Below are positions 41,385-52,707 of a stretch of 64,000 nucleotides of DNA, in pieces. How positions within the stretch are numbered: the first letter of the stretch is position 1; every line of letters starts with the position of its first letter. The position numbers and the translations under genes were made by a program. Source of the DNA: Williamsia sp. 1138 (GTDB lineage Bacteria; Actinomycetota; Actinomycetes; Mycobacteriales; Mycobacteriaceae); NCBI RefSeq assembly GCF_002095435.2, contig NZ_MJEJ02000033.1:1-64000 (forward strand), in the 5' to 3' direction. The notes under the pieces are model-generated. The model searched no databases, had not been told where the DNA came from, and saw nothing but the letters and a program-made list of their open reading frames with translations.

Positions 41385-42440
41385 CTAGTTCCCGGCCGCC
41401 GCGACCCGCGCGGTTTCACGCAGGTCGACCGTCGGCGCCGCACCCGTCCGAAGACCGGCCACCTTCATGGCGATGTTCTCGGCCACCGTGATCGGAGCGT
41501 AGCCGGTCTCGCCGTCTGAGAGGGTTCCGGGAAGTGGTTCGATGACGGCGTCGTGATTGCCGTCGAAGAAGAACGCCGCCGATCGTCGTCGCCGAATCTG
41601 TCCGTTCACCACCGGCGGGTCCACCCGGTGGATCGTCGACATCCAGCGGTCGTTGGTCCAGCGGGCCATGGCGTCGCCGAGATTGACCAGCAGGGCACCG
41701 TCAGCAGGCTCGACGTCATGCCAACGACCGCCACGGTCGAGCACCTGGAGACCCGGCACCTGATCGGCCCACAACACCGTCAGGATGCCGAAGTCCGAAT
41801 GTGCGCCCATACCGCGGAGGTCACCGGTGAACTCGGTATCGCCCTCGGGGAGCGCGTAGTTGTTCATCTTGAGTACCTCGATCGAGTGGTCGACCAAGGT
41901 GTCGAAGTGGTGCGGGGAGAGTCCGAGCGCATCGGTGAACGCTCGCATCAACGTGCGCGACAAGCTTTGGGCCGCGGCGAAGTACCGCATCACCCGTGGC
42001 TCGAAGCCGGGAGCCGCCCCGGGCCAGTTGTTTGGGGCGTAGCTGGTCTCCGGCAGGTCGAGGCCTGCAAAGTCCGCAGCGGCCGTACCCACCGTGTAGG
42101 CCTCGTAGAAGTCGTTCATCTGGTTCGCGGTCGGGATCCCCAGGCTCATACTGAGCGACTCGGACTTCGGCGGGGAGTACCCGCGGTTGGTGGACGGATC
42201 GCGCCGGTACTCCTTCTTCACTGCCAGCGGCAGGGCGAAGAACTCGTCGAGCGCGTCGGCCAGGTCCGTGATCAGGGTGGGATCGATGCCGTGCCCGACG
42301 ATCTGGACGAAACCCACCTCTCGGCACGCCGCGTCGAGTTCGGCGGCGACCGCGGCGCACTGCGTGCTGCTGCCGGCGCTGTGACCGGTGAGGTACGGGC
42401 TGATGTCGATGGTGGGCACGTGGAAGTTTTGTTGGGACAT
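41385..42440 (-). CDS. Isopenicillin-N-synthase-family 2OG/Fe(II) dioxygenase A
   Basis: A 351-residue non-haem iron oxygenase. The N-terminal DIOX_N domain holds VGFVQIVGHGIDPTLITDLA. The catalytic domain has the triad H-x-D in GMGAHSDFGILTVLW and distal His in WMSTIHRVDPP, with the 2-oxoglutarate-binding R-x-S in RRRRSAAFFFDG. It lies in the importer operon, 26 bases after the permease. Relatives of this family hydroxylate varied substrates, including thymine in fungi; the substrate here is not known. Confidence 0.9.
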   Translation of the reverse strand: MSQQNFHVPTIDISPYLTGHSAGSSTQCAAVAAELDAACREVGFVQIVGHGIDPTLITDLADALDEFFALPLAVKKEYRRDPSTNRGYSPPKSESLSMSLGIPTANQMNDFYEAYTVGTAAADFAGLDLPETSYAPNNWPGAAPGFEPRVMRYFAAAQSLSRTLMRAFTDALGLSPHHFDTLVDHSIEVLKMNNYALPEGDTEFTGDLRGMGAHSDFGILTVLWADQVPGLQVLDRGGRWHDVEPADGALLVNLGDAMARWTNDRWMSTIHRVDPPVVNGQIRRRRSAAFFFDGNHDAVIEPLPGTLSDGETGYAPITVAENIAMKVAGLRTGAAPTVDLRETARVAAAGN

Positions 42441-42466
42441 CGATGGTACTTCTTTCTACGAGGGGC

Positions 42467-43351
42467 TCAGGATTTGTTCGCGGACTCGTGCCAGCTGCCG
42501 ACCGCAGCCTTGGACACCAGGCCCATGAGCGCGAAGACGGCCACCCCGAACAGCGAGGCGAGCACGATGGCGGCGATCAGGTCGTCGGACTGTAGCCGGC
42601 CGCGGTAGACGTCGAGGAGCGTTCCGATGCCGGGTTGGCCTTTCGCGAAGAACATGTCGCCGATGATCGCGCCGACCACCACCAGTCCGGACGCAGTGCG
42701 GATACCGGTCAGAATGGTCGGAAGTGCAGTGCGCAGTTCGAGTTTGACCAAACGATCCCAGCGTGAGGCGTGCGAGAGGGCGAACAATTCGTGCAGACCC
42801 CGGTCCACCGAACGGATACCGAAATGTGTGTTGGTGATGATGGGGAAGGCCGCAATGAGAACGCATACGAGGGTGCGCGAAGACATCCCGTATCCGAACC
42901 ACAACCCGATCAGCGGCACGATCGCCAGGATCGGGATCACCTGGATCACCACGGCGTAGGGATAGATGATGCGCTCGATCCACTTGGCCTGACTCATCAG
43001 CACGCCCGTCCCGACCCCGACCACCACTGCCACGAGGAACCCTACGAGGGCCACCTGCGCCGTGACGGCGAGCGCCTCGAGCATGGGCTGCAGATGAGAC
43101 CAGTCCAGCAGCGAGTTGCTCAGCACCTCCGAGGGCGGTGGCAGCAGAAACCTCCGCTCGGGCGCGAGCACCCAGTAGCTGACGGCGGACCACGCTGCAA
43201 GAGCGCCGATCAGGGACAACAACGGGTAGGCCAGTGCAGCAGCGAATCCCCTGAGGCGGCGGCTGTTTCGGCTGCGGGCCCGAGTCCCGACCATCGCCTT
43301 GCTGCGTGGGCGGATCCGGGCAGGCAGGCCGAGGGTGGCGGTGAGGGTCAT
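42467..43351 (-). CDS. ABC importer permease (SsuC/TauC/NMT1 type)
   Basis: A 294-residue inner-membrane permease with about six helices. The EAA loop that contacts the ATPase is seen in RLVKLELRTALPTILTGIRT with ASGLVVVGAIIGDMFFAKGQ after it. The first 40 residues are basic and cytoplasmic. Its ATG overlaps the ATPase stop (43348-43351). This permease type moves sulfonates, nitrate, pyrimidine precursors or riboflavin-like compounds. Confidence 0.92.
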   Translation of the reverse strand: MTLTATLGLPARIRPRSKAMVGTRARSRNSRRLRGFAAALAYPLLSLIGALAAWSAVSYWVLAPERRFLLPPPSEVLSNSLLDWSHLQPMLEALAVTAQVALVGFLVAVVVGVGTGVLMSQAKWIERIIYPYAVVIQVIPILAIVPLIGLWFGYGMSSRTLVCVLIAAFPIITNTHFGIRSVDRGLHELFALSHASRWDRLVKLELRTALPTILTGIRTASGLVVVGAIIGDMFFAKGQPGIGTLLDVYRGRLQSDDLIAAIVLASLFGVAVFALMGLVSKAAVGSWHESANKS

Positions 43352-44154
43352 CGGATACTCCCGTGCAAGGTCGCCGAGATGTCGGCGACGTATTCGTTGA
43401 ACCGTGGGTCGAATCGCAGCTCTGGGTCTCGCGGGTACGGCAGGTCGATGTCGATCACCGCCGCGATCCTGCCCGGGCGGGGTGTCATCACCACCACCTT
43501 GTTGGCGAGATAGACCGCTTCCGACACCGAGTGGGTGATGAACATGGCAGTGAACTTCTCTGTCGCATAGAGCTTCTGCAGCTCGGCCTGCATCTCGAGG
43601 CGGGTCATCTCGTCGAGGGCCCCGAACGGCTCGTCGAGCAGCATGATCTCCGGAGACAGCGTGAGCGCCCGGGCGAGGGACACCCGCATCTTCATGCCGC
43701 CCGACAATGCATTCGGCAGTTGATTCGCGAACTGGTCGAGTCCGACCGCTGAGATCGCCTCCGCAGCACGACGTTTGTAGTCTGCTCGGTGGCCTCGCCG
43801 GTCACGTCTGAGTTCTCCCCCTTTCAGTTCTGCCGACAGTTCCACGTTGGCGCGGACGTTGCGCCACGGAAGCAGAGTCGGCTCCTGGAAGATGAAACCG
43901 ACCGATTCGCCGGCCACCGCCACCGAACCCTCGGTAGGTCTCTCGAGCCCGGCAGCCATGCGCAGCAGCGTCGACTTTCCGCATCCTGACGGGCCCACCA
44001 CCGCGACGAAATCGCCGCGTCGGACTTCGAGGTCCGCCTTTTCGATGGCAACGGTTCCGGTGTCGAACTGCTTCACCACATCTGCGAACACCATCTGCAG
44101 ATCTTTGGTGAGCCGTCGAGCGTCGGTTCCCCGCGTCGTGTCGGCTAGTTTCAT
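43348..44154 (-). CDS. ABC importer ATP-binding protein (SsuB/TauB type)
   Basis: A 268-residue ATPase with Walker A VVGPSGCGKSTLLRMAAGLE, Q-loop FIFQEPTLLPWRNV, signature ALSGGMKMRVSLARAL and Walker B IMLLDEPFGALDEMTRLEMQ. ATG 44154 (MKLADT) has TTGGAG nine bases upstream; ATG 44160 is an in-frame alternative. It is the first gene of the minus-strand operon and serves the permease at 42467 and the lipoprotein encoded divergently at 44403. Confidence 0.93.
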   Translation of the reverse strand: MKLADTTRGTDARRLTKDLQMVFADVVKQFDTGTVAIEKADLEVRRGDFVAVVGPSGCGKSTLLRMAAGLERPTEGSVAVAGESVGFIFQEPTLLPWRNVRANVELSAELKGGELRRDRRGHRADYKRRAAEAISAVGLDQFANQLPNALSGGMKMRVSLARALTLSPEIMLLDEPFGALDEMTRLEMQAELQKLYATEKFTAMFITHSVSEAVYLANKVVVMTPRPGRIAAVIDIDLPYPRDPELRFDPRFNEYVADISATLHGSIR

Positions 44155-44175
44155 CGTCATCTCCAAGAGCTTGGC

Positions 44176-44188
44176 TGTACATGCAACA
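44176..44188. promoter_or_regulatory. CATGCA operator site 1
   Basis: TGTACATGCAACA, an imperfect dyad just upstream of the ATPase start, shares the TACATGCA core with site 2. Confidence 0.45.
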
Positions 44189-44215
44189 GGCTGGCCTTCC
44201 AACGCTTCTCATCTT

Positions 44216-44233
44216 TGATTACATGCATGACGA
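44216..44233. promoter_or_regulatory. CATGCA operator site 2
   Basis: TGATTACATGCATGACGA matches site 3 in 11 of its first 12 bases (TGATTRCATGCA). It is placed to act on the minus-strand operon. Confidence 0.55.
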
Positions 44234-44361
44234 TTTCGTTGCACCACGTTACAACTTGATGACGTAAGCACTCATTGCTTCGAAAAATTGGCTTTTTGCT
44301 CGTCTTTTTCGGCACCTCGACGAACTTGGGCGAATCGCTTAACACCATGGCAACAGAGTAG

Positions 44362-44377
44362 TGATTGCATGCAATCA
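44362..44377. promoter_or_regulatory. CATGCA operator site 3, perfect palindrome
   Basis: TGATTGCATGCAATCA is a perfect 16-bp dyad 25 bases before the GTG of the binding-protein gene. ATTGCATGCAAT fits the TTGnnnnCAA pattern bound by FCD-type GntR regulators. Confidence 0.7.
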
Positions 44378-44402
44378 ACCGAAACTCACCTCTAGGAGAA
44401 CC

Positions 44403-45569
44403 GTGAAAGCACAACGCGCCCAACGCATCGGTGTCACCGTCATCGCCCTCACCACTCTCGGGCTGTCGGCCTGCGCCTACGGCTCGGACGAGCCAGCAGA
44501 ATCTGTGTCCCTCGAGCCGGCCGCGGCGCAGCAGAGTCTCGCCGACGTCTGCCCCGCCAACGTAGGCGTCCAGCTGCAGTGGCAGCCGCAGTCGGACATG
44601 GGCGGTCTGTTCGGCCTGCTCGGACCCGGATACGTCGTCGACACCGACGACAAGTCGGTCACCGGCCCGCTGGTCGCGGGCGGTAAGGACACCGGTGTCG
44701 ACATCACTCTCAAATCAGGCGGCCCGGCAATCGGCTTCCAGTCCGTGACCTCGCAGCTGTACGTCGACGACTCGGTGATGCTGGGCGTGGTGCACGGTGA
44801 TCAGCTGGTGTCGGCGGCCGCCGACCAGCCGGTGGTCGGCGTGACTCCCCTGCTCAAGTACAGCCCGGCGATTCTGATGTGGGATCCCGCGACTCATCCC
44901 GAGTGGAAGACGGTCGGCGACGTCGGGACCACCGACGCCACGGTCGTGGTGTCCAAGGACCAGATCTTCCCGCAGTGGATGGTCGCGAAGGGACTGCTCA
45001 AGCAGTCCCAGATCGACACGAGCTACGACGGCGCGCCGTCCCGGTTCGTCGGCGACCCGGCCATCGCGCAGCAGGGTTTCGCCAACTCCGAGCCGTACAC
45101 CTACGCCGAGGAGACACCCGCCTGGGACAAGCCCGTCTCGTACGGCCTGGTCAAGGACGCGGGTTACGACATCTATGCCTCGAACGTCTCGGTACGCGCG
45201 GACAAGGTCGCCGAGTTCTCCCCGTGCCTCGATAAACTGGTGCCGATCATCCAGCAGTCCGGCGTCGACTACATCAGTTCACCCGAAGCCACCAACAAGG
45301 TGATCGTCGATGTGGTGTCGCAAGACCAGACCTACTCCCCGTACAGCGAAGGCGAGGCGGCCTTCAGCGCGAACCTGCTGCAGGACAAGGGTTTGCTCGC
45401 CAATGAGGACAACGGGTCGTTCGGTGTCTACGACGAGACGCGCACACAGAGCAACGTCGACGACCTGCGTCCGGTCCTCGCCGCAGGCGGCAACCAGGTT
45501 CCGCAGAACGCGACCGGGGAGCAACTGTTCACCAATCAGTTCACCGACCCCGCCATCTCGATCCCCTGA
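44403..45569 (+). CDS. ABC importer substrate-binding lipoprotein
   Basis: A 388-residue lipoprotein. The signal peptide ends in the lipobox LGLSAC with the acylated Cys24. The mature part resembles NMT1/THI5/SsuA-type binding proteins (GVQLQWQPQSDMGGLFGLLG, then VTSQLYVDDSVMLGVVHGDQ). GTG 44403 has TAGGAGAA upstream. It is divergent from the ATPase-permease genes, with which it forms one importer, and is followed 33 bases later by a second dioxygenase gene. The ligand is unknown; the aromatic-rich N-terminal region suits a ring compound. Confidence 0.88.
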   Translation: MKAQRAQRIGVTVIALTTLGLSACAYGSDEPAESVSLEPAAAQQSLADVCPANVGVQLQWQPQSDMGGLFGLLGPGYVVDTDDKSVTGPLVAGGKDTGVDITLKSGGPAIGFQSVTSQLYVDDSVMLGVVHGDQLVSAAADQPVVGVTPLLKYSPAILMWDPATHPEWKTVGDVGTTDATVVVSKDQIFPQWMVAKGLLKQSQIDTSYDGAPSRFVGDPAIAQQGFANSEPYTYAEETPAWDKPVSYGLVKDAGYDIYASNVSVRADKVAEFSPCLDKLVPIIQQSGVDYISSPEATNKVIVDVVSQDQTYSPYSEGEAAFSANLLQDKGLLANEDNGSFGVYDETRTQSNVDDLRPVLAAGGNQVPQNATGEQLFTNQFTDPAISIP

Positions 45570-45602
45570 GCGAACCCCTCTTCACCGGAAGGCACTCCCC
45601 GC

Positions 45603-46571
45603 ATGACACACGACATGACAGAACTGCAGCGCGAACGCCGTATGGGCGCACTGGGCACCGAGAGCGATCGCGAGGTGCGGCGCATCTCACTGGCAGATCT
45701 GAGCAACCGGCGCGCAGACATCGCTGACGAACTGTGGTCCGCAGCAACCGACATCGGATTCTTCCAGGTCGTCGACCACGGGATCGATCTCGTCGACGTG
45801 CAGGACGCATTCGCGATGGCAGAAGCGTTCTTCGCTCTGCCTGAAGACGTGAAATCCCGCCGCCCCAAGCGTTACAACTCCGGGTGGGAGAGCTTGACGC
45901 AGGTGCGCCCGTCGGTCGGCACCCCTGATCAGAAGGAGTCGTACCAGGTGACGTTGTCGAACATGGACGGGCTGTGGCCCACCGACGCCGAACTCGCCGG
46001 TTTCCGGCAGACGATCCTCGATTTCGAGCGCCGCTGCTGGACCCTGGCGATGGAGCTGCTCTCACTGTTCGCCGACAAACTCGGATTCGACCGGGACTCT
46101 TTCACCCGTGCACATGATCCGGCGTCTGCGAGTTACCAGAGCACGTTACGTCTGCTGCACTATTACGCGTTGCCTGCCGACGCCGACCTCACCGGGGTGT
46201 GGCGGGCCGGCGCCCACACCGACTTCGACTGCCTGACATTGCTTTTTCAGCGCAATGGGCAGGGCGGACTGCAGGTGTGCCCCGGTAAGGAGATGGAAGA
46301 TCAGGTGTGGACGTCGGTGGAACCCTCCGACGATGCCATCACCTGCAACATCGGCGACATGCTGATGCGTTGGAGCGACGATGCCCTGCCGTCCAACTTC
46401 CACCGGGTGCGCAGCCCGGGACCCGACGATCATCGCGGTTCTCGCTACAGCATCGCGTTCTTCGCACAGGCCAATCGGGAGGTCTCGATCGAGGGCCCGA
46501 ATGGCAAGTACCCGGCCATCAGCGCCGAGGATTACCTGCAGCAACGCATCAGCGCGAACTTCGCAGGCTGA
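45603..46571 (+). CDS. Isopenicillin-N-synthase-family 2OG/Fe(II) dioxygenase B
   Basis: A 322-residue oxygenase of the same family as the one at 41385 but clearly diverged from it. DIOX_N: TDIGFFQVVDHGIDLVDVQD. The triad is H-x-D in GAHTDFDCLTLLFQ and His in LPSNFHRVRSPG, and R-x-S is in GSRYSIAFFAQ. It is cotranscribed with the binding-protein gene. Two such enzymes in one importer locus suggest successive oxidations, or two related substrates. Confidence 0.9.
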   Translation: MTHDMTELQRERRMGALGTESDREVRRISLADLSNRRADIADELWSAATDIGFFQVVDHGIDLVDVQDAFAMAEAFFALPEDVKSRRPKRYNSGWESLTQVRPSVGTPDQKESYQVTLSNMDGLWPTDAELAGFRQTILDFERRCWTLAMELLSLFADKLGFDRDSFTRAHDPASASYQSTLRLLHYYALPADADLTGVWRAGAHTDFDCLTLLFQRNGQGGLQVCPGKEMEDQVWTSVEPSDDAITCNIGDMLMRWSDDALPSNFHRVRSPGPDDHRGSRYSIAFFAQANREVSIEGPNGKYPAISAEDYLQQRISANFAG

Positions 46572-46589: not shown

Positions 46590-46648
46590 ATCTTGGTGGG
46601 TTGCGGCGACGGCGACCTGCGCTTTCGCTCGCCACAACCCACCAAGAT
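46590..46648. terminator. Perfect 14-bp inverted repeat, bidirectional terminator
   Basis: ATCTTGGTGGGTTG (46590-46603) and CAACCCACCAAGAT (46635-46648) are perfectly complementary, and the next six bases pair with one mismatch, giving a stem of about 20 bp. It separates the dioxygenase gene from the end of the convergent SMR operon. Confidence 0.8.
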
Positions 46649-46654
46649 CGGAGC

Positions 46655-46978
46655 TCAGTGCGCCGCGCCGAGCTCGATGATCAAGACCCCGCCGGCGATG
46701 GTCACGATCCCGAGGCCCATCAGCCAGGTCAGTGGGTCGTCGAACAAGATTTTCGCAACGACGGCAGTGATCGCGACACCACACGCCGCCCAGATCCCGT
46801 AAGCGATCCCCACCGGCATCCCCTCGGCCAACGTCAGCGCCAGCATCCCGAAGGCCAGCAGATAGCCGATCGCCGTCGGGATGAGCCACACCGCTTTCCG
46901 AAAGCCGTCTGATGCCCGCAACGACATGGTGCCGACGACTTCACTCAGGATCGCGATGGTCAGATACACCCACTGCAT
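46655..46978 (-). CDS. Small multidrug resistance (SMR) protein, second of a pair
   Basis: A 107-residue four-helix SMR exporter. The essential membrane Glu is in YLTIAILSEVVGTMSLRASD, and the family motif AYGIWAACGVAITAVVAKIL is present. Its ATG overlaps the stop of the preceding SMR gene (TGATG, 46976-46980). Paired SMR genes often encode heterodimers with opposite topologies. It is the last gene of the glycosyltransferase-monooxygenase-lipase operon. Confidence 0.92.
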   Translation of the reverse strand: MQWVYLTIAILSEVVGTMSLRASDGFRKAVWLIPTAIGYLLAFGMLALTLAEGMPVGIAYGIWAACGVAITAVVAKILFDDPLTWLMGLGIVTIAGGVLIIELGAAH

Positions 46979-47370
46979 CAGGGTTGCTCCGGCTCTGCCT
47001 CAGTCGACATCGTCACCGTCTCGGCCTTGTGAGACCCCAGTTCCACCAGCAGGACCCCGACGATCACGACCCCGATACCGAGTGCGATCACCCAGGTGAA
47101 CGGGTCGTCGAAGATGATGGCCGCGAGTACAGCGGTCAGCGCGACGCCGCACGCTGCCCAGATCCCGTAGGCGACACCGATCGGCATACCCTCGCGCAGC
47201 ACCAGCGCCAGGCAGACGAACGCACCGCTGTAGCCGAGCACGACGAGGGCGATCCAGGCCGGATGATCCACGGCCGCCCGAAGTGCGAGAGTCGCGGTGA
47301 CCTCCATGACAATTGCGCCGAACAGCAGTAACCACGGCTTCAGCGAGCCGGTCTGCGCGGAAGTGCTCAT
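46978..47370 (-). CDS. Small multidrug resistance (SMR) protein, first of a pair
   Basis: A 130-residue SMR protein with the membrane Glu in LLLFGAIVMEVTATLALRAA and the motif AYGIWAACGVALTAVLAAII. It is longer than usual, with a 12-residue N-terminal lead and an acidic hydrophilic tail of about 20 residues. ATG 47370 overlaps the lipase stop by four bases; TTG 47379 is less likely. With the downstream SMR it probably forms a two-component exporter for the product of this operon or for a toxic cation. Confidence 0.92.
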   Translation of the reverse strand: MSTSAQTGSLKPWLLLFGAIVMEVTATLALRAAVDHPAWIALVVLGYSGAFVCLALVLREGMPIGVAYGIWAACGVALTAVLAAIIFDDPFTWVIALGIGVVIVGVLLVELGSHKAETVTMSTEAEPEQP

Positions 47371-48575
47371 GGGCGACAATCATCCCGCACGGGCGACCCG
47401 GCGAGTCGGTCGGTCAGATACGGGAGGATCCCGCCGGTGTTCACGGTCCCGTGCCCGGCGGTGGGTTGCAGATCGACGGTCACGGACCCACCCAGAACAC
47501 ACTGGTCCCGGATGGACGCTGCCGTCCACGCGGGCTCATTGAACTTGTCCTGTCCGCCGTACAGCACGAGCAGCGGAGCAGTGAGAGCTGCCTTGGGCAG
47601 CGCCATCTGCTGGATCAGCTCGCGTAGCCGAGCGGTGGCGGCGGGCGAGGCAGGCACGAAGTCGGGCGCCGAGATCCATGCGACCGCCTGCTCCCGCACA
47701 GACGCCTCGGCGCATGCGCTCAGTGCATCCCAGTGCTGGGCGAGGCCGCCGCGCCGATAGTCATCGCGATTCATGTCGGGGTTGCGCCGCGCGAGGGATT
47801 CCTCCATCCACTGCAGGCTTCCCTGCTGTTCCTTGGTGAGCGCGCCGGCCGCGGCCAGGTCGACCACCGGGACCTTGCTGGTGGGAGGTACCTGCGCGAC
47901 CGCACCTTTCAGCCGCAGATCGGGCGCGTAGGACGCCGCGATCTCGTCAGCGGCCCAGCTCGCCCCAGCACCCTGCGATATCCCGTAGGTCACCCAGGTC
48001 GTCGACACCTGCGGATACACCTGCCGGATCGCCCGGACCGAGTCGATCATGGTGCGGGCAGCGGAATAGGGATCGAGGTACGGGTGCGGGCCGCTGTCCG
48101 AACCCAACCCTGCGAAGTCGGCGAGGGTCACGGCCATACCCGCGCGCAGATACGTGGTCACCAATCGGGCGAGCCCGTAGAGGTTGCCCGTCAACGATGG
48201 CGCACAGTTGGTGTTTATCCCGGTCGACCCGTGTCCCAGCGCCAGGACTGGCCAGCCACCCTCGGGCGGTGTGCCCTCCGGTTCGAAGACCGTCCCCGAC
48301 ACGACATTCGGCTTACCACTGGTGTCGGTGGACCGGTACAGGATCCGGTCGCCACGCAGATCGGGAGCGAGGCCGGTGGTCGACACCCAGTCGCGTCTGT
48401 CGACGACGTCACCGGGAGCCGGATAGTCGATGGACGACGTCGTCGGCATCGGCTCGTCGGGTGGAGTGGCCGGCTCGGCCGTACCGCACGCAGCGAGAAC
48501 CAGCGACACGATCGCGGCAATCGCCACAAATCCGTGCCTTGTGAACGTCACGGGCAAGAACTTACCAGCGGTCAT
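47367..48575 (-). CDS. Secreted lipoprotein lipase/esterase (LIP family)
   Basis: A 402-residue exported alpha/beta-hydrolase. The signal peptide ends at the lipobox SLVLAACG with Cys30. The nucleophile elbow is YGISQGAGASWA, the acid in LYGGQDKFNEP and the His in TAGHGTVNTGG, as in secretory lipases. ATG 48575 (GTG 48578 just before) gives a gap of 12 bases to the monooxygenase stop. Its place in a glycosyltransferase/monooxygenase/SMR operon is unusual; it may process an acylated product or supply fatty acid for a starter. Confidence 0.88.
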   Translation of the reverse strand: MTAGKFLPVTFTRHGFVAIAAIVSLVLAACGTAEPATPPDEPMPTTSSIDYPAPGDVVDRRDWVSTTGLAPDLRGDRILYRSTDTSGKPNVVSGTVFEPEGTPPEGGWPVLALGHGSTGINTNCAPSLTGNLYGLARLVTTYLRAGMAVTLADFAGLGSDSGPHPYLDPYSAARTMIDSVRAIRQVYPQVSTTWVTYGISQGAGASWAADEIAASYAPDLRLKGAVAQVPPTSKVPVVDLAAAGALTKEQQGSLQWMEESLARRNPDMNRDDYRRGGLAQHWDALSACAEASVREQAVAWISAPDFVPASPAATARLRELIQQMALPKAALTAPLLVLYGGQDKFNEPAWTAASIRDQCVLGGSVTVDLQPTAGHGTVNTGGILPYLTDRLAGSPVRDDCRP

Positions 48576-48587
48576 CACCCGCCCCGG

Positions 48588-50078
48588 TCAGGCGATCGGG
48601 TCGGCCGCACACACCACCCGATCGGGTCTGATCAACACTGAGCGGGCTCCGTTGGTGTGCAGCCATCGGCGCATCGCGGGTGCGAACGGCCCCAGGTCGC
48701 CGACCTCCATCTCCCGCGCACCCACCGATCGGGAGTGCCGCAGCAGCGCCGCATCAGTGTGCCCGTCGACGAGCAGAACGTAACCGCAGCCGAGGATTTC
48801 GTCGGACCGCCGGTGCGTGTCTTGTTCGTCCGTAGAGGTGAACTGGGGCACCGTCCGCCCGACGATGCGGTTCTGGCGCCGAGCCCGTTCGCGCAGCGAC
48901 AGGCGTCTGCGACCAACCCGCGGATAGATGAAGGCGGGGCCGGCCGATGCTGCCCCCGGCACGGAATCGACGGCACGCATCGCTGTGTGAGCCACCGTCT
49001 GCGCGGGCATGCCCCGAACGCTCATCAGCGTTCCCACCACGGTCGCCGCGACCACCGACCGCACCACATGCGGCTTGCGTTCGGATTCGTACGTGCGAAG
49101 CAGCCGCTCGTCGGCGCGCCCGTCGATCACCGCGGCCAGCTTCCACGCCAGGTTCATCGCATCACGCAGGCCCGCGCCGAGACCCTGCCCGATGAACGGC
49201 GGGGTGAGATGCGCGGCGTCACCGAGGACGAAAAGCGGACCCGATTGCCAGTGCCTGGCGACGCGCGCGGCATGCCGATAGATCGCGGTCCGGAGGATCT
49301 CGACGTCGGTGTCGGCATCAGCCAGCTGCGCACGTACCGCGCGCAGTGCCCACGCCTCGTCCACGTCGTCGCCGACAGCGGTGTCGAGGTCCGGCAGGCG
49401 GAACTCCCAGCGGTATCTGTCTTCTCCGATTCGCATGAACGTCGACGCCTGCGCGCCCGTGCACACCTGGTGCACTCCGGGCCACATCTGCAGGTCCGCA
49501 GCACAACGTACATCGACCACCAACCAACGTTGTCTGAAGCGGAGGTCGTACGCCTGCTGCCCGATGGCCGACGCGACGACGCTCGAAGCGCCGTCACACC
49601 CGAGGACGAACTGTGCGGTGAGGACGTCAGGACCGCGCTCATCGCGTACCTGAAGCGTCGCCACACCGCCGGACACCACAACAGATTCGACATCGACGCC
49701 CTCGCGCACGGTGACGGCCTGCTGCCTCGACACGGCACCGCGCAGAGCTCGCTCGAGATCGGGTTGGTCGAACATCGTGCTCTCGCGCCAGCCATGGTGT
49801 CCGTTCGCCGAACTTCGCGCGAACCTCATCAGTACCCGCATCCGTGCGTCGACCAAGCGCATTCCCTCTGCGGGCCGTCCATGCGGACCGAAGTCGTCTG
49901 CGGCGCCGGCGGCTTGCAGGATCCTGTACACCTCGTCGTCGAGGTGCACAGCTCGAGGCAGTGGATACACGCCGCGATGTCGCTCGAGGATCGTGCTGGG
50001 GATGCCGTATCGAGCCAGCAGAGCGGCGGCCGTCAGGCCGGTCGGTCCGGCACCGACGATCACTACCTGGGCGGACAC
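48588..50078 (-). CDS. FAD-dependent aromatic-ring monooxygenase (MhpA/PheA type)
   Basis: A 496-residue class A flavoprotein hydroxylase. The dinucleotide fold is VVIVGAGPTGLTAAALLARY, the second FAD motif is PLFVLGDAAHLTPPFIGQGL followed by GAGLRDAMNLAWKLA, and a DG motif reads FVLGCDGASSVVASAIG. The C-terminal thioredoxin-like domain is partly present (LVDGHTDAALLRHSRSVG). It hydroxylates phenols or resorcinols with NAD(P)H and O2. Its start overlaps the glycosyltransferase stop by 16 bases. Context points to a polyketide-derived phenol as substrate. Confidence 0.9.
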   Translation of the reverse strand: MSAQVVIVGAGPTGLTAAALLARYGIPSTILERHRGVYPLPRAVHLDDEVYRILQAAGAADDFGPHGRPAEGMRLVDARMRVLMRFARSSANGHHGWRESTMFDQPDLERALRGAVSRQQAVTVREGVDVESVVVSGGVATLQVRDERGPDVLTAQFVLGCDGASSVVASAIGQQAYDLRFRQRWLVVDVRCAADLQMWPGVHQVCTGAQASTFMRIGEDRYRWEFRLPDLDTAVGDDVDEAWALRAVRAQLADADTDVEILRTAIYRHAARVARHWQSGPLFVLGDAAHLTPPFIGQGLGAGLRDAMNLAWKLAAVIDGRADERLLRTYESERKPHVVRSVVAATVVGTLMSVRGMPAQTVAHTAMRAVDSVPGAASAGPAFIYPRVGRRRLSLRERARRQNRIVGRTVPQFTSTDEQDTHRRSDEILGCGYVLLVDGHTDAALLRHSRSVGAREMEVGDLGPFAPAMRRWLHTNGARSVLIRPDRVVCAADPIA

Positions 50079-51403
50079 TGCGCAGGCGATCCGGAGGCGT
50101 GCTTCGGCGGCCTGTTCAGTGCCGCACTGATCCCGCGCGCCCCGCCGAGCACGGCCAGTTCTTTCGCCATCGCCCGCGCGCGATCCTGGTAACCGGGGTC
50201 GTCCAGCACCGTCTGCACCGCCCGCCGGATGGCAGCCGGCCGGGTCGAGCGCAACCGAATTCCCGTGCCTGAACGCACGATTCGCGCTGCAACTTCGTTC
50301 TTGTCCTCCGTGGACCCCGCCACGACGATGGGAACACCATGCCGCAGAGCGAAGTGCACTCCGCCCCAGCCGCCGTTGGTGACCAGGACGTCGGCACGGG
50401 GCAACAACATGTCGAACGGGACGAACTCGGTCACGACGGAATTGTCCCCGGGCGCACGTACTGCCTTCGCGGACGGCCCGCCCGTCGTCGCGATCACCAA
50501 CGTAGGGGTGTGCGCCAGCGCAGCCAGGGTCGGTTCCACCAATCTGCCCATGTCACCGTTGTCGAGCGTGCCCTGAGTGACCACCACCACCGGGTCCGGT
50601 CCGTCGAGCCGGGGCCACCAGGGAGGGGTTGTGTGAGACCCGCCTGCGATGTCGAGCACCGGTCCCACGTAGTCGAGCCGCTCGTCGAGATCGCGCCGCG
50701 GGTACTCGAACGACGGGGCGGTGAGAACGAAGATGTCGTCGGCGAGCAGTGGCCAGTCCAGAACGAACGAGCCCGCCTCGCATCCGACGGTCTCCTGCAC
50801 CGCGGCGTCGGCAATCCGCTGAACCCGGCGCAACACCACCGCGCGCGCACCCGCACTGAGCAGTCTGTTCCGGCGCATCCCCCACGGGGTGCTCGACGGC
50901 GGAAACCCTGGCCCGAACGGCGCGGTGTCGCGGCTTGACGCCATCAGCGGCGACGTACAGACGCAACCTATCCGTGGTGAACCCATCTGGGTAGAACCCG
51001 ACCGGTGCGAGCCGACATCACGGACGGTCAGGGTCGGCAACAGTCCGAGGAAGAGGTTCTCGGCGAGCACCACGTCCACAGTACGTTCGGCAAGCACCTT
51101 CGACACCGCTCGATGCTGCGCGACGATGTTCTTGGCGAAGAAGTTCTCGAGGTCGTAGCGAGAGCGAAGGATCCCCGGCAACCGGGATCGGCCGGGGAAT
51201 TGCCCGTCGAGATCTCGATCGTCGAAGTCCGAAGACACGGGTAGCGCAATGTGTTCCAGCCCGGCCCGCTGAACCCTCTCCCGAAAGCGGCTGCCGGTCA
51301 GCATCATCACAGTCGAACCATCACTGACGAGTTGTTTACCGATGGTTATCATCGGCTGGACATGCCCGGTCAGCGGAGCGCTGCACAACAACACATTTCG
51401 CAT
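50063..51403 (-). CDS. GT1-family glycosyltransferase (UDP-glycosyltransferase, MGT-like)
   Basis: A 446-residue GT-B enzyme of the macrolide/flavonoid glycosyltransferase type. The N-terminal half opens NVLLCSAPLTGHVQPMITIG, and the C-terminal nucleotide-sugar motif is VTNGGWGGVHFALRHGVPIV with AGSTEDKNEVAARI following. It transfers a sugar from NDP-sugar to a small lipophilic acceptor. It is the first gene of the five-gene minus-strand operon and is divergent from the type III PKS. The C-terminal 20 residues are basic and Pro-rich. Confidence 0.9.
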   Translation of the reverse strand: MRNVLLCSAPLTGHVQPMITIGKQLVSDGSTVMMLTGSRFRERVQRAGLEHIALPVSSDFDDRDLDGQFPGRSRLPGILRSRYDLENFFAKNIVAQHRAVSKVLAERTVDVVLAENLFLGLLPTLTVRDVGSHRSGSTQMGSPRIGCVCTSPLMASSRDTAPFGPGFPPSSTPWGMRRNRLLSAGARAVVLRRVQRIADAAVQETVGCEAGSFVLDWPLLADDIFVLTAPSFEYPRRDLDERLDYVGPVLDIAGGSHTTPPWWPRLDGPDPVVVVTQGTLDNGDMGRLVEPTLAALAHTPTLVIATTGGPSAKAVRAPGDNSVVTEFVPFDMLLPRADVLVTNGGWGGVHFALRHGVPIVVAGSTEDKNEVAARIVRSGTGIRLRSTRPAAIRRAVQTVLDDPGYQDRARAMAKELAVLGGARGISAALNRPPKHASGSPAQCPPR

Positions 51404-51437
51404 CTGGATTCGTCATTCTTCTCGGGAGTAGGTCCGA

Positions 51438-51451
51438 TTGTCACATGACAA
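51438..51451. promoter_or_regulatory. Palindrome in the PKS/glycosyltransferase promoter region
   Basis: TTGTCA-CA-TGACAA is a perfect 6-2-6 dyad, 35 bases upstream of the glycosyltransferase start in the 251-base divergent gap. The regulator is not identified. Confidence 0.45.
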
Positions 51452-51654
51452 CAACCGTTCTCGGATCGCCTGGCATCACCTACCGACGCCACAGTCGAGC
51501 AAATGACCGACATCACATCCGAAAAGCCCGGTCTCGACAACCCGAGGGGTTGCCGAATGCCATAAACGGACCTACGTTGACCTCAACCTAGTTTGCATCG
51601 CGGCGAGACTACGGCTACCCCAGGCTTTTTGAGACGAGATTCGGAAATCATCCC

Positions 51655-52707
51655 ATGGTCACCGCTTATGTAAACCAGATCAGCACCGCAGTTCCAGAGC
51701 TCGACGTTCACGAGACCTTCGTCGAGTTCGCCCCCGCGCTGATCGACGCCCGCGGAAAAATGCTGCTGTTCAAGAGGATGGCCGAACGCGCTCACATCTC
51801 TCATCGCTGGTCTGCAGTCGAGGATCCGGTGGCGTTCTACGGCGACAATCCGAGCGACGTCGACACCGAAACCCGCATGATCGAGTACGAGGACAAGGCC
51901 CCGAAACTGGCCCAGCGCGCCGTGGACGGCCTGGACCTGGGTGCAGCGGCCGACGACATCACCCACTTGGTGATCGTGACCTGCACAGGCTTCTATTCCC
52001 CCGGCATCGACTACGACATCATCAAGAACTGCGGCATCAGCCCCAACGTCGACCGCACGCAGATCGGCTTCATGGGTTGTTTCGCCGGTATCACCGGCCT
52101 GAAGACCGCGAACAACATCGTTCGGGCCGATCCGAGCGCCAAGGTCCTGCTCGTCAGTGTCGAGCTGTGCTCCGTTCATCTCCAGAAGCCCAAGAGTCTC
52201 GAATCCATGTTGTCGTTCTTGATCTTCGGAGACGGCTGCGCAGCAGCAGTGATCTCCGCCGAGACCACCGGAATTGAACTCGACACGTTCAAGCAGTTGA
52301 TGGTGCCGGACACCCGCGACCTCATCACCTGGCGAATCGGCAACGCGGGTTATGACATGGTGCTGTCCGGCAAGGTCCCCGGCCAACTCGGCAAGGCACT
52401 GAACCCCGAGAATCTCAAGCTCATCCTGGCCGGACGTACACCGGACGATATCGACCTCTGGGCAATTCATCCCGGCGGCAGAACCATTCTCGATGCGGTC
52501 GAGAACGCCCTCGAACTCGACTCCGACGCACTCGCAGTGTCACGGCACATCCTTGAAAACTACGGGAACATGTCTTCTGCGACAGTACTTTTCGTTCTCG
52601 CCGAGATGATGGAGCGCGCCGCACACGGCGGCCCCACAGGCATGGGGAGCGCCATGGCTTTCGGTCCCGGGCTCACCGCGGAGACGATGCTGTTCCGACT
52701 GGAGTGA
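51655..52707 (+). CDS. Type III polyketide synthase (chalcone-synthase-like)
   Basis: A 350-residue homodimeric ketosynthase. The catalytic triad is intact: Cys142 in QIGFMGCFAGITGLKTA, His272 in WAIHPGGRTILDAVENAL and Asn305 in LENYGNMSSATVLFVL. GDGCAAAVISAETTG and the C-terminal GPTGMGSAMAFGPGLTAET are also diagnostic. It extends a CoA starter with malonyl-CoA and cyclises the chain to a pyrone, resorcinol or naphthalene-type product. Divergent tailoring and export genes suggest a small biosynthetic cluster. The starter cannot be predicted by eye. Confidence 0.93.
   Translation: MVTAYVNQISTAVPELDVHETFVEFAPALIDARGKMLLFKRMAERAHISHRWSAVEDPVAFYGDNPSDVDTETRMIEYEDKAPKLAQRAVDGLDLGAAADDITHLVIVTCTGFYSPGIDYDIIKNCGISPNVDRTQIGFMGCFAGITGLKTANNIVRADPSAKVLLVSVELCSVHLQKPKSLESMLSFLIFGDGCAAAVISAETTGIELDTFKQLMVPDTRDLITWRIGNAGYDMVLSGKVPGQLGKALNPENLKLILAGRTPDDIDLWAIHPGGRTILDAVENALELDSDALAVSRHILENYGNMSSATVLFVLAEMMERAAHGGPTGMGSAMAFGPGLTAETMLFRLE

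Follow-up and report, generated by a model that had tools for sequence, protein, structure and literature searches.

A conserved type III polyketide synthase locus of Williamsia and its possible role in the synthesis of a phenolic-lipid glycoside

In a stretch of 64,000 nucleotides from Williamsia sp. 1138 (contig NZ_MJEJ02000033.1; the whole stretch is referred to as the window) the gene of a type III polyketide synthase (PKS) lies divergent from a compact minus-strand operon which, according to the list of open reading frames (ORFs) and the sequence, comprises the genes for a glycosyltransferase (GT), a class A FAD monooxygenase (FMO), a lipase-like lipoprotein (LIP) and two small multidrug resistance proteins (SMR1 and SMR2). 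In three actinobacterial genera sequence comparison links the PKS with a single GT clade and with related flavin hydroxylases of class A, and in the genomes compared this core of PKS, GT and FMO is both smaller and more widely distributed than the six-gene cluster put forward in a preliminary description of this DNA. The balance tips slightly towards the locus representing, with all of the steps proposed below, a pathway for a phenolic-polyketide, probably phenolic-lipid, glycoside. Our best reading of the gene content is a sugar-for-methyl variant of a phenolic-lipid pathway similar to srsABC and hidABC, to which an exchangeable envelope-side module would be attached.

Conservation of the cluster within and beyond Williamsia

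The genes for PKS, GT, FMO and LIP occur in the same order and at one site in all nine genomes of the genus (the window and eight congeners), flanked in each case by genes for a 2-oxoglutarate (2OG) oxygenase and an EamA protein. This conservation rules out that the six genes represent a chance array. All five partner genes stand beside the PKS gene in eight of the nine genomes, and GT, FMO and LIP do so in every one, so that the PKS is not always found without the other five genes in relatives, as the preliminary description had considered. The CGNR gene next to the PKS gene was not found at this place in genome G003, and in G007 about 3.9 kb including genes for a 60KD_IMP (YidC-type) protein and a P-type ATPase are inserted between both genes (L040:11331-15187). 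The GT gene of G005 is split over two reading frames (L044:6500-7761), representing either a pseudogene or an assembly error. The ratios of nonsynonymous to synonymous divergence (dN/dS), which are rough values from pairs among six of the ten Williamsia-type loci, many of them with a synonymous divergence (dS) above 1, ranged from 0.03 to 0.10 for PKS, 0.12 to 0.20 for GT, 0.20 to 0.31 for FMO, 0.12 to 0.29 for LIP, 0.10 to 0.26 for SMR1 and 0.04 to 0.17 for SMR2.

At E<=1e-60 the PKS was detected in 25 of 401 genomes of the family, belonging to six of 31 genera. Six genomes of two genera other than Williamsia (G122, G134, G313, G198, G282 and G208) carry PKS, GT, a YceI protein and FMO at all six loci fetched, the FMO gene being opposite in orientation to the GT gene in G282 and G208. 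The comparison of gene neighbourhoods proposed in the preliminary description therefore recovered GT and FMO beside the PKS in further genera. Relatives of LIP or of the SMR proteins were not found within the 18 kb fetched for each of these loci. The assignment to YceI is based on Pfam for four of the six proteins and on the match to a YceI query for the other two. In Gordonia rhizosphera (G411) PKS and GT are followed by the contig end. YceI is a lipid-binding family. Because PKS loci of the wider family carry YceI and lack LIP and SMR, the exchange suggests that the product is lipidic and bound to the envelope, and not a small aromatic compound that is freely exported.

Among the best 80 of 561 relatives in a scan of named genomes, the closest ones were found in Williamsia sp. 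1135 (98%), W. muralis (87%), Gordonia rhizosphera (85%) and Rhodococcoides/Rhodococcus (63-64%). A whole Williamsia-type cluster was also detected in L063, titled Kitasatospora arboriphila NRRL B-24581 (87%), the species label of which is probably wrong.

The polyketide synthase and its partner enzymes

The protein families given for the six gene products in the preliminary description were all borne out by matches in Pfam or NCBIfam. The PKS matched the chalcone/stilbene synthase models PF02797 (4.7e-28) and PF00195 (5.7e-23), both above cut-off. Its catalytic triad, already described as intact, is invariant (C142, H272 and N305) in the 11 aligned sequences, as expected for a type III PKS. 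The best solved relative by score was Pks18 (1ted), which we take to be a long-chain PKS. Cys205, Thr144 and Ala148 of Pks18, presumably involved in its acyl tunnel, align with Cys172, Thr111 and Ser115 of the window PKS.

A quick PKS tree without bootstrap was calculated from 76 of 127 usable rows (128 were extracted and one was dropped for length), which covered 25 of 73 loci from outside Actinomycetota and four of six plasmid loci; 24 PKSs of the ordinary actinobacterial kind served by choice as its root. The 23 rows of the family form one group (SH-aLRT 100), which together with 29 rows from Proteobacteria, Acidobacteria and planctomycetes constitutes one set (support 98), the family group being either nested in or sister to the latter. 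The tree, rooted on the ordinary actinobacterial type III PKSs, rules out that the PKS is a member of these. The phylogenetic placement suggested in the preliminary description thus moved the enzyme away from the usual actinobacterial stock. The closest PKSs outside Actinomycetota, with about 45-55% identity, are found in clusters of Alphaproteobacteria and Acidobacteria which combine PKS, methyltransferase and flavin monooxygenase genes; these clusters differ from the window by a non-orthologous, UbiH-like flavin enzyme and by a methyltransferase where the window has the GT. On a plasmid of Paracoccus liaowanqingii (L055:1571-2628) the match to the PKS is broken into two pieces, and the gene as annotated has a late start.

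A UbiH-like flavin enzyme was detected in 65 of the 73 outside loci and a methyltransferase in at least 39 of them using three methyltransferase queries; a further methyltransferase-like ORF was recognised by eye in Mesorhizobium (L089), so the latter count is a lower bound. None of the 73 loci, some of which were shortened by contig ends, matched the GT, FMO, LIP or SMR proteins of the window or one YceI query at E<=1e-8. As in srsABC- and hidABC-type operons, a flavin oxidoreductase stands beside the PKS in all nine Williamsia-group and all six GT-YceI loci, whereas Pfam and NCBIfam revealed no methyltransferase among the six genes of the window or the neighbouring 2OG, CGNR, EamA and TK genes. 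The cluster FMO belongs to another class A subfamily than the flavin enzymes of the proteobacterial relatives. Against the outside UbiH-like enzymes the best pieces reached 28.8% over 59 aa (E 0.014) and 28.7% over 108 aa (E 5e-5), with E>=5 for a third query; by this comparison they and the window FMO are not orthologous.

The GT matched PF06722 (1.8e-16) and PF00201 above cut-off, in agreement with a C-terminal donor domain, and TIGR01426 (MGT) with 7e-29, the last being below its cut-off. Taking furthermore into account that His14, which we take to be the N-terminal catalytic His, is invariant in 12 aligned cluster GTs, the protein has the features of a GT1-type enzyme. The candidate explanation that the window GT is broken at its odd residues 131-140 was ruled out, these forming a variable linker that, among the 12 aligned GTs, is confined to the window GT and those of two near relatives. 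In trees with 15 comparison rows each, hand-picked from the match lists, the 16 cluster GT rows fall on one side of a branch with 100/100 support, and the 15 cluster FMO rows are held together with 87/81 by a branch present in 86% of the bootstrap trees; the cluster FMOs probably form one clade. Among 301 genomes the six best GT matches outside Williamsia are the GTs of the six GT-YceI loci, and the score drops from 437 to 377 bits after the cluster GTs. The FMO itself matched FAD_binding_3 (8.2e-69) and NF004829 with 480 bits against a cut-off of 390.

LIP matched the secretory lipase model PF03583 (2.2e-13), and its lipobox and GISQG motif were read from the sequence. SMR1 and SMR2 matched PF00893 (4.3e-22 and 8.9e-16, both above cut-off), and both contain, as read from the sequence, the membrane Glu which has a functional role in SMR proteins. 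Their two adjacent genes resemble those of EbrAB and MdtIJ, whose models matched with scores that were all under the cut-off, and those of NepAB, presumably a paired SMR exporter. Against the ArnF model SMR1 remained below the threshold (22.5 bits; cut-off 99). To our knowledge paired SMR exporters have no link to a polyketide pathway.

Gene layout and intergenic elements

The coordinates of the six ORFs in the preliminary description agree with the ORF list (Table 1). Its statement that the operon genes overlap or abut by 4-16 bases holds as regards the tight packing and does not quite fit the junction of SMR1 and SMR2. The frames of GT and FMO overlap by 16 nt, FMO and LIP are separated by a gap of 9 nt (12 nt from the ATG of LIP), LIP and SMR1 overlap by 4 nt (ATGA) or, with the TTG start, by 13 nt, and SMR1 and SMR2 overlap by 1 nt (TGATG). 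The inverted repeat past SMR2 lies between this gene and the convergent 2OG-oxygenase gene and likely marks the end of the operon.

Table 1. Positions of genes and candidate signals of the PKS locus in the window.
Feature	Position	Strand	Remarks
type III PKS	51655..52707	+	350 aa, Cys142-His272-Asn305; in 9/9 genomes of the genus
GT, GT1-family glycosyltransferase	50063..51403	-	446 aa; Pfam, NCBIfam
FMO, class A FAD monooxygenase, MhpA-like	48588..50078	-	496 aa; NCBIfam NF004829
LIP, lipase-like alpha/beta hydrolase lipoprotein	47367..48578	-	403 aa, GISQG motif, LAAC lipobox
SMR1	46978..47370	-	ATG start at 47370; ORF list has TTG start at 47379
SMR2	46655..46978	-	107 aa
inverted repeat	46590-46603 / 46635-46648	unstranded	perfect 14-nt arms, just past SMR2
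promoter-like element TTGCCG-N17-TACGTT	51550..51578	+	upstream of PKS; conserved motif by eye
sigma-70-like match GTGACA-N18-AAGAAT	51415..51444	-	upstream of GT; consensus match only

The element TTGCCG-N17-TACGTT may represent the PKS promoter. The form TTGCSG-N17-TACGTT was recognised by eye in eight of ten aligned intergenic regions, G003 has the variant TTGCAA-N17-TATGTT, and no such element was found by eye in the aligned intergenic region of Gordonia rhizosphera. The window contains one match, compared with none in 100 shuffles. A scan for sigma-70-like sites gave two matches in the 301-base region where 0.2 were expected, and this element was not among them. The letters of the window element, GGACCTACGT, reappear by eye on the opposite strand in the PKS-GT interval of G282 and G208 (L159 and L160). 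Furthermore, the PKS-GT interval of the window contains an inverted repeat at 51534-51556 and, by eye, the short palindrome TTGTCA-CA-TGACAA as a possible operator of PKS and GT; the palindrome of G003 is unlike it.

On the other side, the cluster adjoins a locus with an ABC transporter and the 2OG oxygenase (window 41385-46571). The 2OG-oxygenase gene next to the cluster is kept in all eight congeners, and this locus seems unrelated to the PKS.

Proposed pathway and alternative explanations

The srsABC cluster of Streptomyces griseus, which we take to encode a type III PKS, a methyltransferase and a flavin hydroxylase, resembles the locus in the combination of a type III PKS with an adjacent flavin hydroxylase. 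The window differs by a GT in place of the methyltransferase and by the additional LIP and SMR genes (YceI elsewhere), a distinction which concerns gene make-up and not sequences. The srsABC cluster reportedly leads to an alkylquinone product and has a beta-lactam phenotype (PMC10896814). Operons of methyltransferase, oxidoreductase and PKS are also reported for hierridins (hidABC; PMC8086630) and for planctomycetes, the PKSs of which gave alkylresorcinols in C. glutamicum and one of whose type III PKS operons carries a lipoprotein and a lipid/isoprenoid-binding protein (PMC10896814). Alkylresorcinol products and alkylquinone functions have support in the literature for sister architectures (PMC10896814, PMC8086630, PMC8776678). 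These operons share with the window the compact arrangement of PKS, decorating enzyme and oxidoreductase; the cited passages name neither a GT nor SMR proteins, and the PKS gene lies inside the operon, whereas it is divergent in the window. In the cyl cluster, which its authors connect with ribocyclophanes (PMC8086630), a type III PKS is likewise accompanied by a glycosyltransferase (cylN), but unlike the window this cluster is a cyanobacterial hybrid type I/III assembly line. The earlier statement that no cluster of this form has been described therefore needs to be narrowed: no cluster of this exact form was found in searches of an open-access library, which leaves most subscription journals outside and does not establish the absence of a described homologue. 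No report of a type III PKS together with YceI was found in this library either.

In the proposed pathway the PKS would use malonyl-CoA to extend an acyl-CoA, likely a long-chain one, giving an alkyl-resorcinol or alkyl-pyrone. A long-chain starter is suggested because Pks18 is, by a small margin, the best solved relative and because of the YceI partner. The flavin enzyme would hydroxylate the ring in the direction of a quinol or quinone, and the GT would add a sugar, replacing the methyl group which is given by the methyltransferase of many PKS relatives. LIP might act on the outward-facing side of the membrane by acyl removal or transfer, and the SMR pair, where present, might assist the passage of the glycolipid, or of this lipid in a charged form, across the membrane. 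The lipid nature of the product and the roles of LIP and the SMR pair are what we infer beyond the conserved enzymes.

Several observations weigh against this reading. The lead of Pks18 is small (175.6 bits compared with 169.3 and 166.6 for other solved PKSs), the best NCBIfam model, DpgA, is far under its cut-off (127 vs 425 bits), and neither starter nor ring type can be read from the sequence. None of the six genes of the window encodes an acyl-CoA ligase; an AMP-binding, acyl-CoA ligase-like gene is convergent with the PKS gene in G117 and precedes it in G068, and ORFs comparable in size and place occupy its position in L046, L064 and L065. No GT was found next to the PKS in G013, G068, G117, G332 and G275 (the PKS match being partial in G275) or in the Rhodococcoides/Rhodococcus loci L064 and L065. 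Nine PKS-bearing genomes are neither of the Williamsia nor of the GT-YceI type, and loci were fetched for five of them, all but G102, G130, G153 and G250; none of these four appears among the 58 genomes that matched the GT at 1e-40, a result which counts provided that the same genome draw was used. The connection of the PKS with the FMO is not as clear-cut as that with the GT, considering the support of the FMO group in the tree and that an FMO without a nearby PKS (G243, 391 bits) scores higher than the cluster FMO of G208 (389 bits). For the planctomycete operons the roles of methyltransferase and oxidoreductase were left largely unresolved by the authors (PMC10896814).

Further objections concern the envelope side. 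The SMR pair is present in eight of the nine Williamsia genomes and was not found in G003, where no SMR1 relative was detected anywhere at 1e-20. Its role is proposed from adjacency alone. The typical substrates of SMR proteins are cations, so that a phenolic glycoside without charge would be unusual for them. Of 201 family genomes, 84 contain SMR1 relatives at E<=1e-20 (eight of the 84 from the Williamsia group), mostly as two adjacent matches, and the presence of an SMR pair was consequently no longer taken to prove a dedicated exporter. The export is the weakest part of the proposal because similar SMR pairs are common elsewhere.

The preliminary description had assumed that the locus makes, glycosylates and exports a small aromatic polyketide. 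Spelled out, this model is a pathway for a soluble glycoside, in which a short pyrone, resorcinol or naphthol would be hydroxylated, glycosylated and exported by the SMR pair and the lipase would trim an acyl group. The making and glycosylating part of this model agrees with the conserved unit of PKS, GT and hydroxylase, whereas its exporter part suffers from the missing pair in G003 and the frequency of such pairs elsewhere. The gene content is also compatible with a soluble glycoside, and the nearest solved GTs include the enzymes CalG4 and the oleandomycin GT, which act on soluble antibiotics. However, YceI replaces LIP and SMR in all six GT-bearing loci of non-Williamsia type that show the other flank of the GT, and the best solved PKS relative, although by a small margin, is the presumably long-chain Pks18. 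We regard a soluble product as a less likely alternative.

It is rather doubtful that the locus combines a PKS-GT-FMO pathway with a separate neighbouring unit of lipase and SMR pair for lipid use or efflux, which came to be co-transcribed with it. This explanation departs from the favoured glycoside pathway only on LIP and SMR, and the alternatives are not wholly exclusive. The frequent SMR1 relatives mentioned above and LIP relatives at 1e-60 in 96 of 301 family genomes, the Williamsia group being included in both cases, are in line with it. Furthermore, dS between the window and G007 (L040) amounts to 0.213 for LIP and 0.154 for SMR1 as compared with 0.678 for PKS, 0.714 for GT and 0.589 for FMO. 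Because of these lower values the LIP-SMR1 segment seems to have its own recombination history, as if exchanged between lineages, which also weakens the idea of one pathway. SMR2 shows no clear pattern, its dS being 0.303 between the window and G007 as compared with 0.365 and 0.321 for two further relatives. Against two separate units, LIP adjoins FMO in all nine genomes, the frames in the window overlap or nearly abut, and no LIP relative was found beside SMR pairs at six of six loci fetched elsewhere (3.6-7 kb, one shortened by the contig). LIP and SMR were thus, in this small sample, not seen as a roaming unit.

A more specific version of the glycoside pathway, in which a glycosylated polyketide quinol or quinone would be an envelope lipid, the SMR heterodimer its flippase and YceI the alternative carrier in the sister genera, appears unlikely at present. 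A comparable case is ArnEF, an SMR-like pair that acts as the flippase of an aminosugar lipid, and if the flippase reading was true, a drug-efflux fold would have been recruited into glycolipid assembly. It is very improbable that GT and flavin enzyme serve detoxification or self-resistance against an aromatic compound with the PKS as an independent neighbour: the FMO is MhpA-like, the MhpA family is known for catabolic hydroxylases and SMR pumps are often resistance proteins, but PKS, GT and FMO occur together in three genera and their trees broadly agree by eye.

The locus is conserved and real and, read as a known pathway type with a sugar in place of methyl and an exchangeable envelope module, modestly novel. 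One type III PKS lineage appears to be combined with decorating enzymes that differ by phylum, namely a methyltransferase and a UbiH-like enzyme outside Actinomycetota and a GT and an MhpA-like enzyme inside, while the envelope-side partner differs between sister genera, being either YceI or lipase and SMR. Should the product turn out to be a glycosylated phenolic lipid, the genus and its relatives would offer a simple six-gene model for making and placing such lipids in mycolic-acid bacteria.

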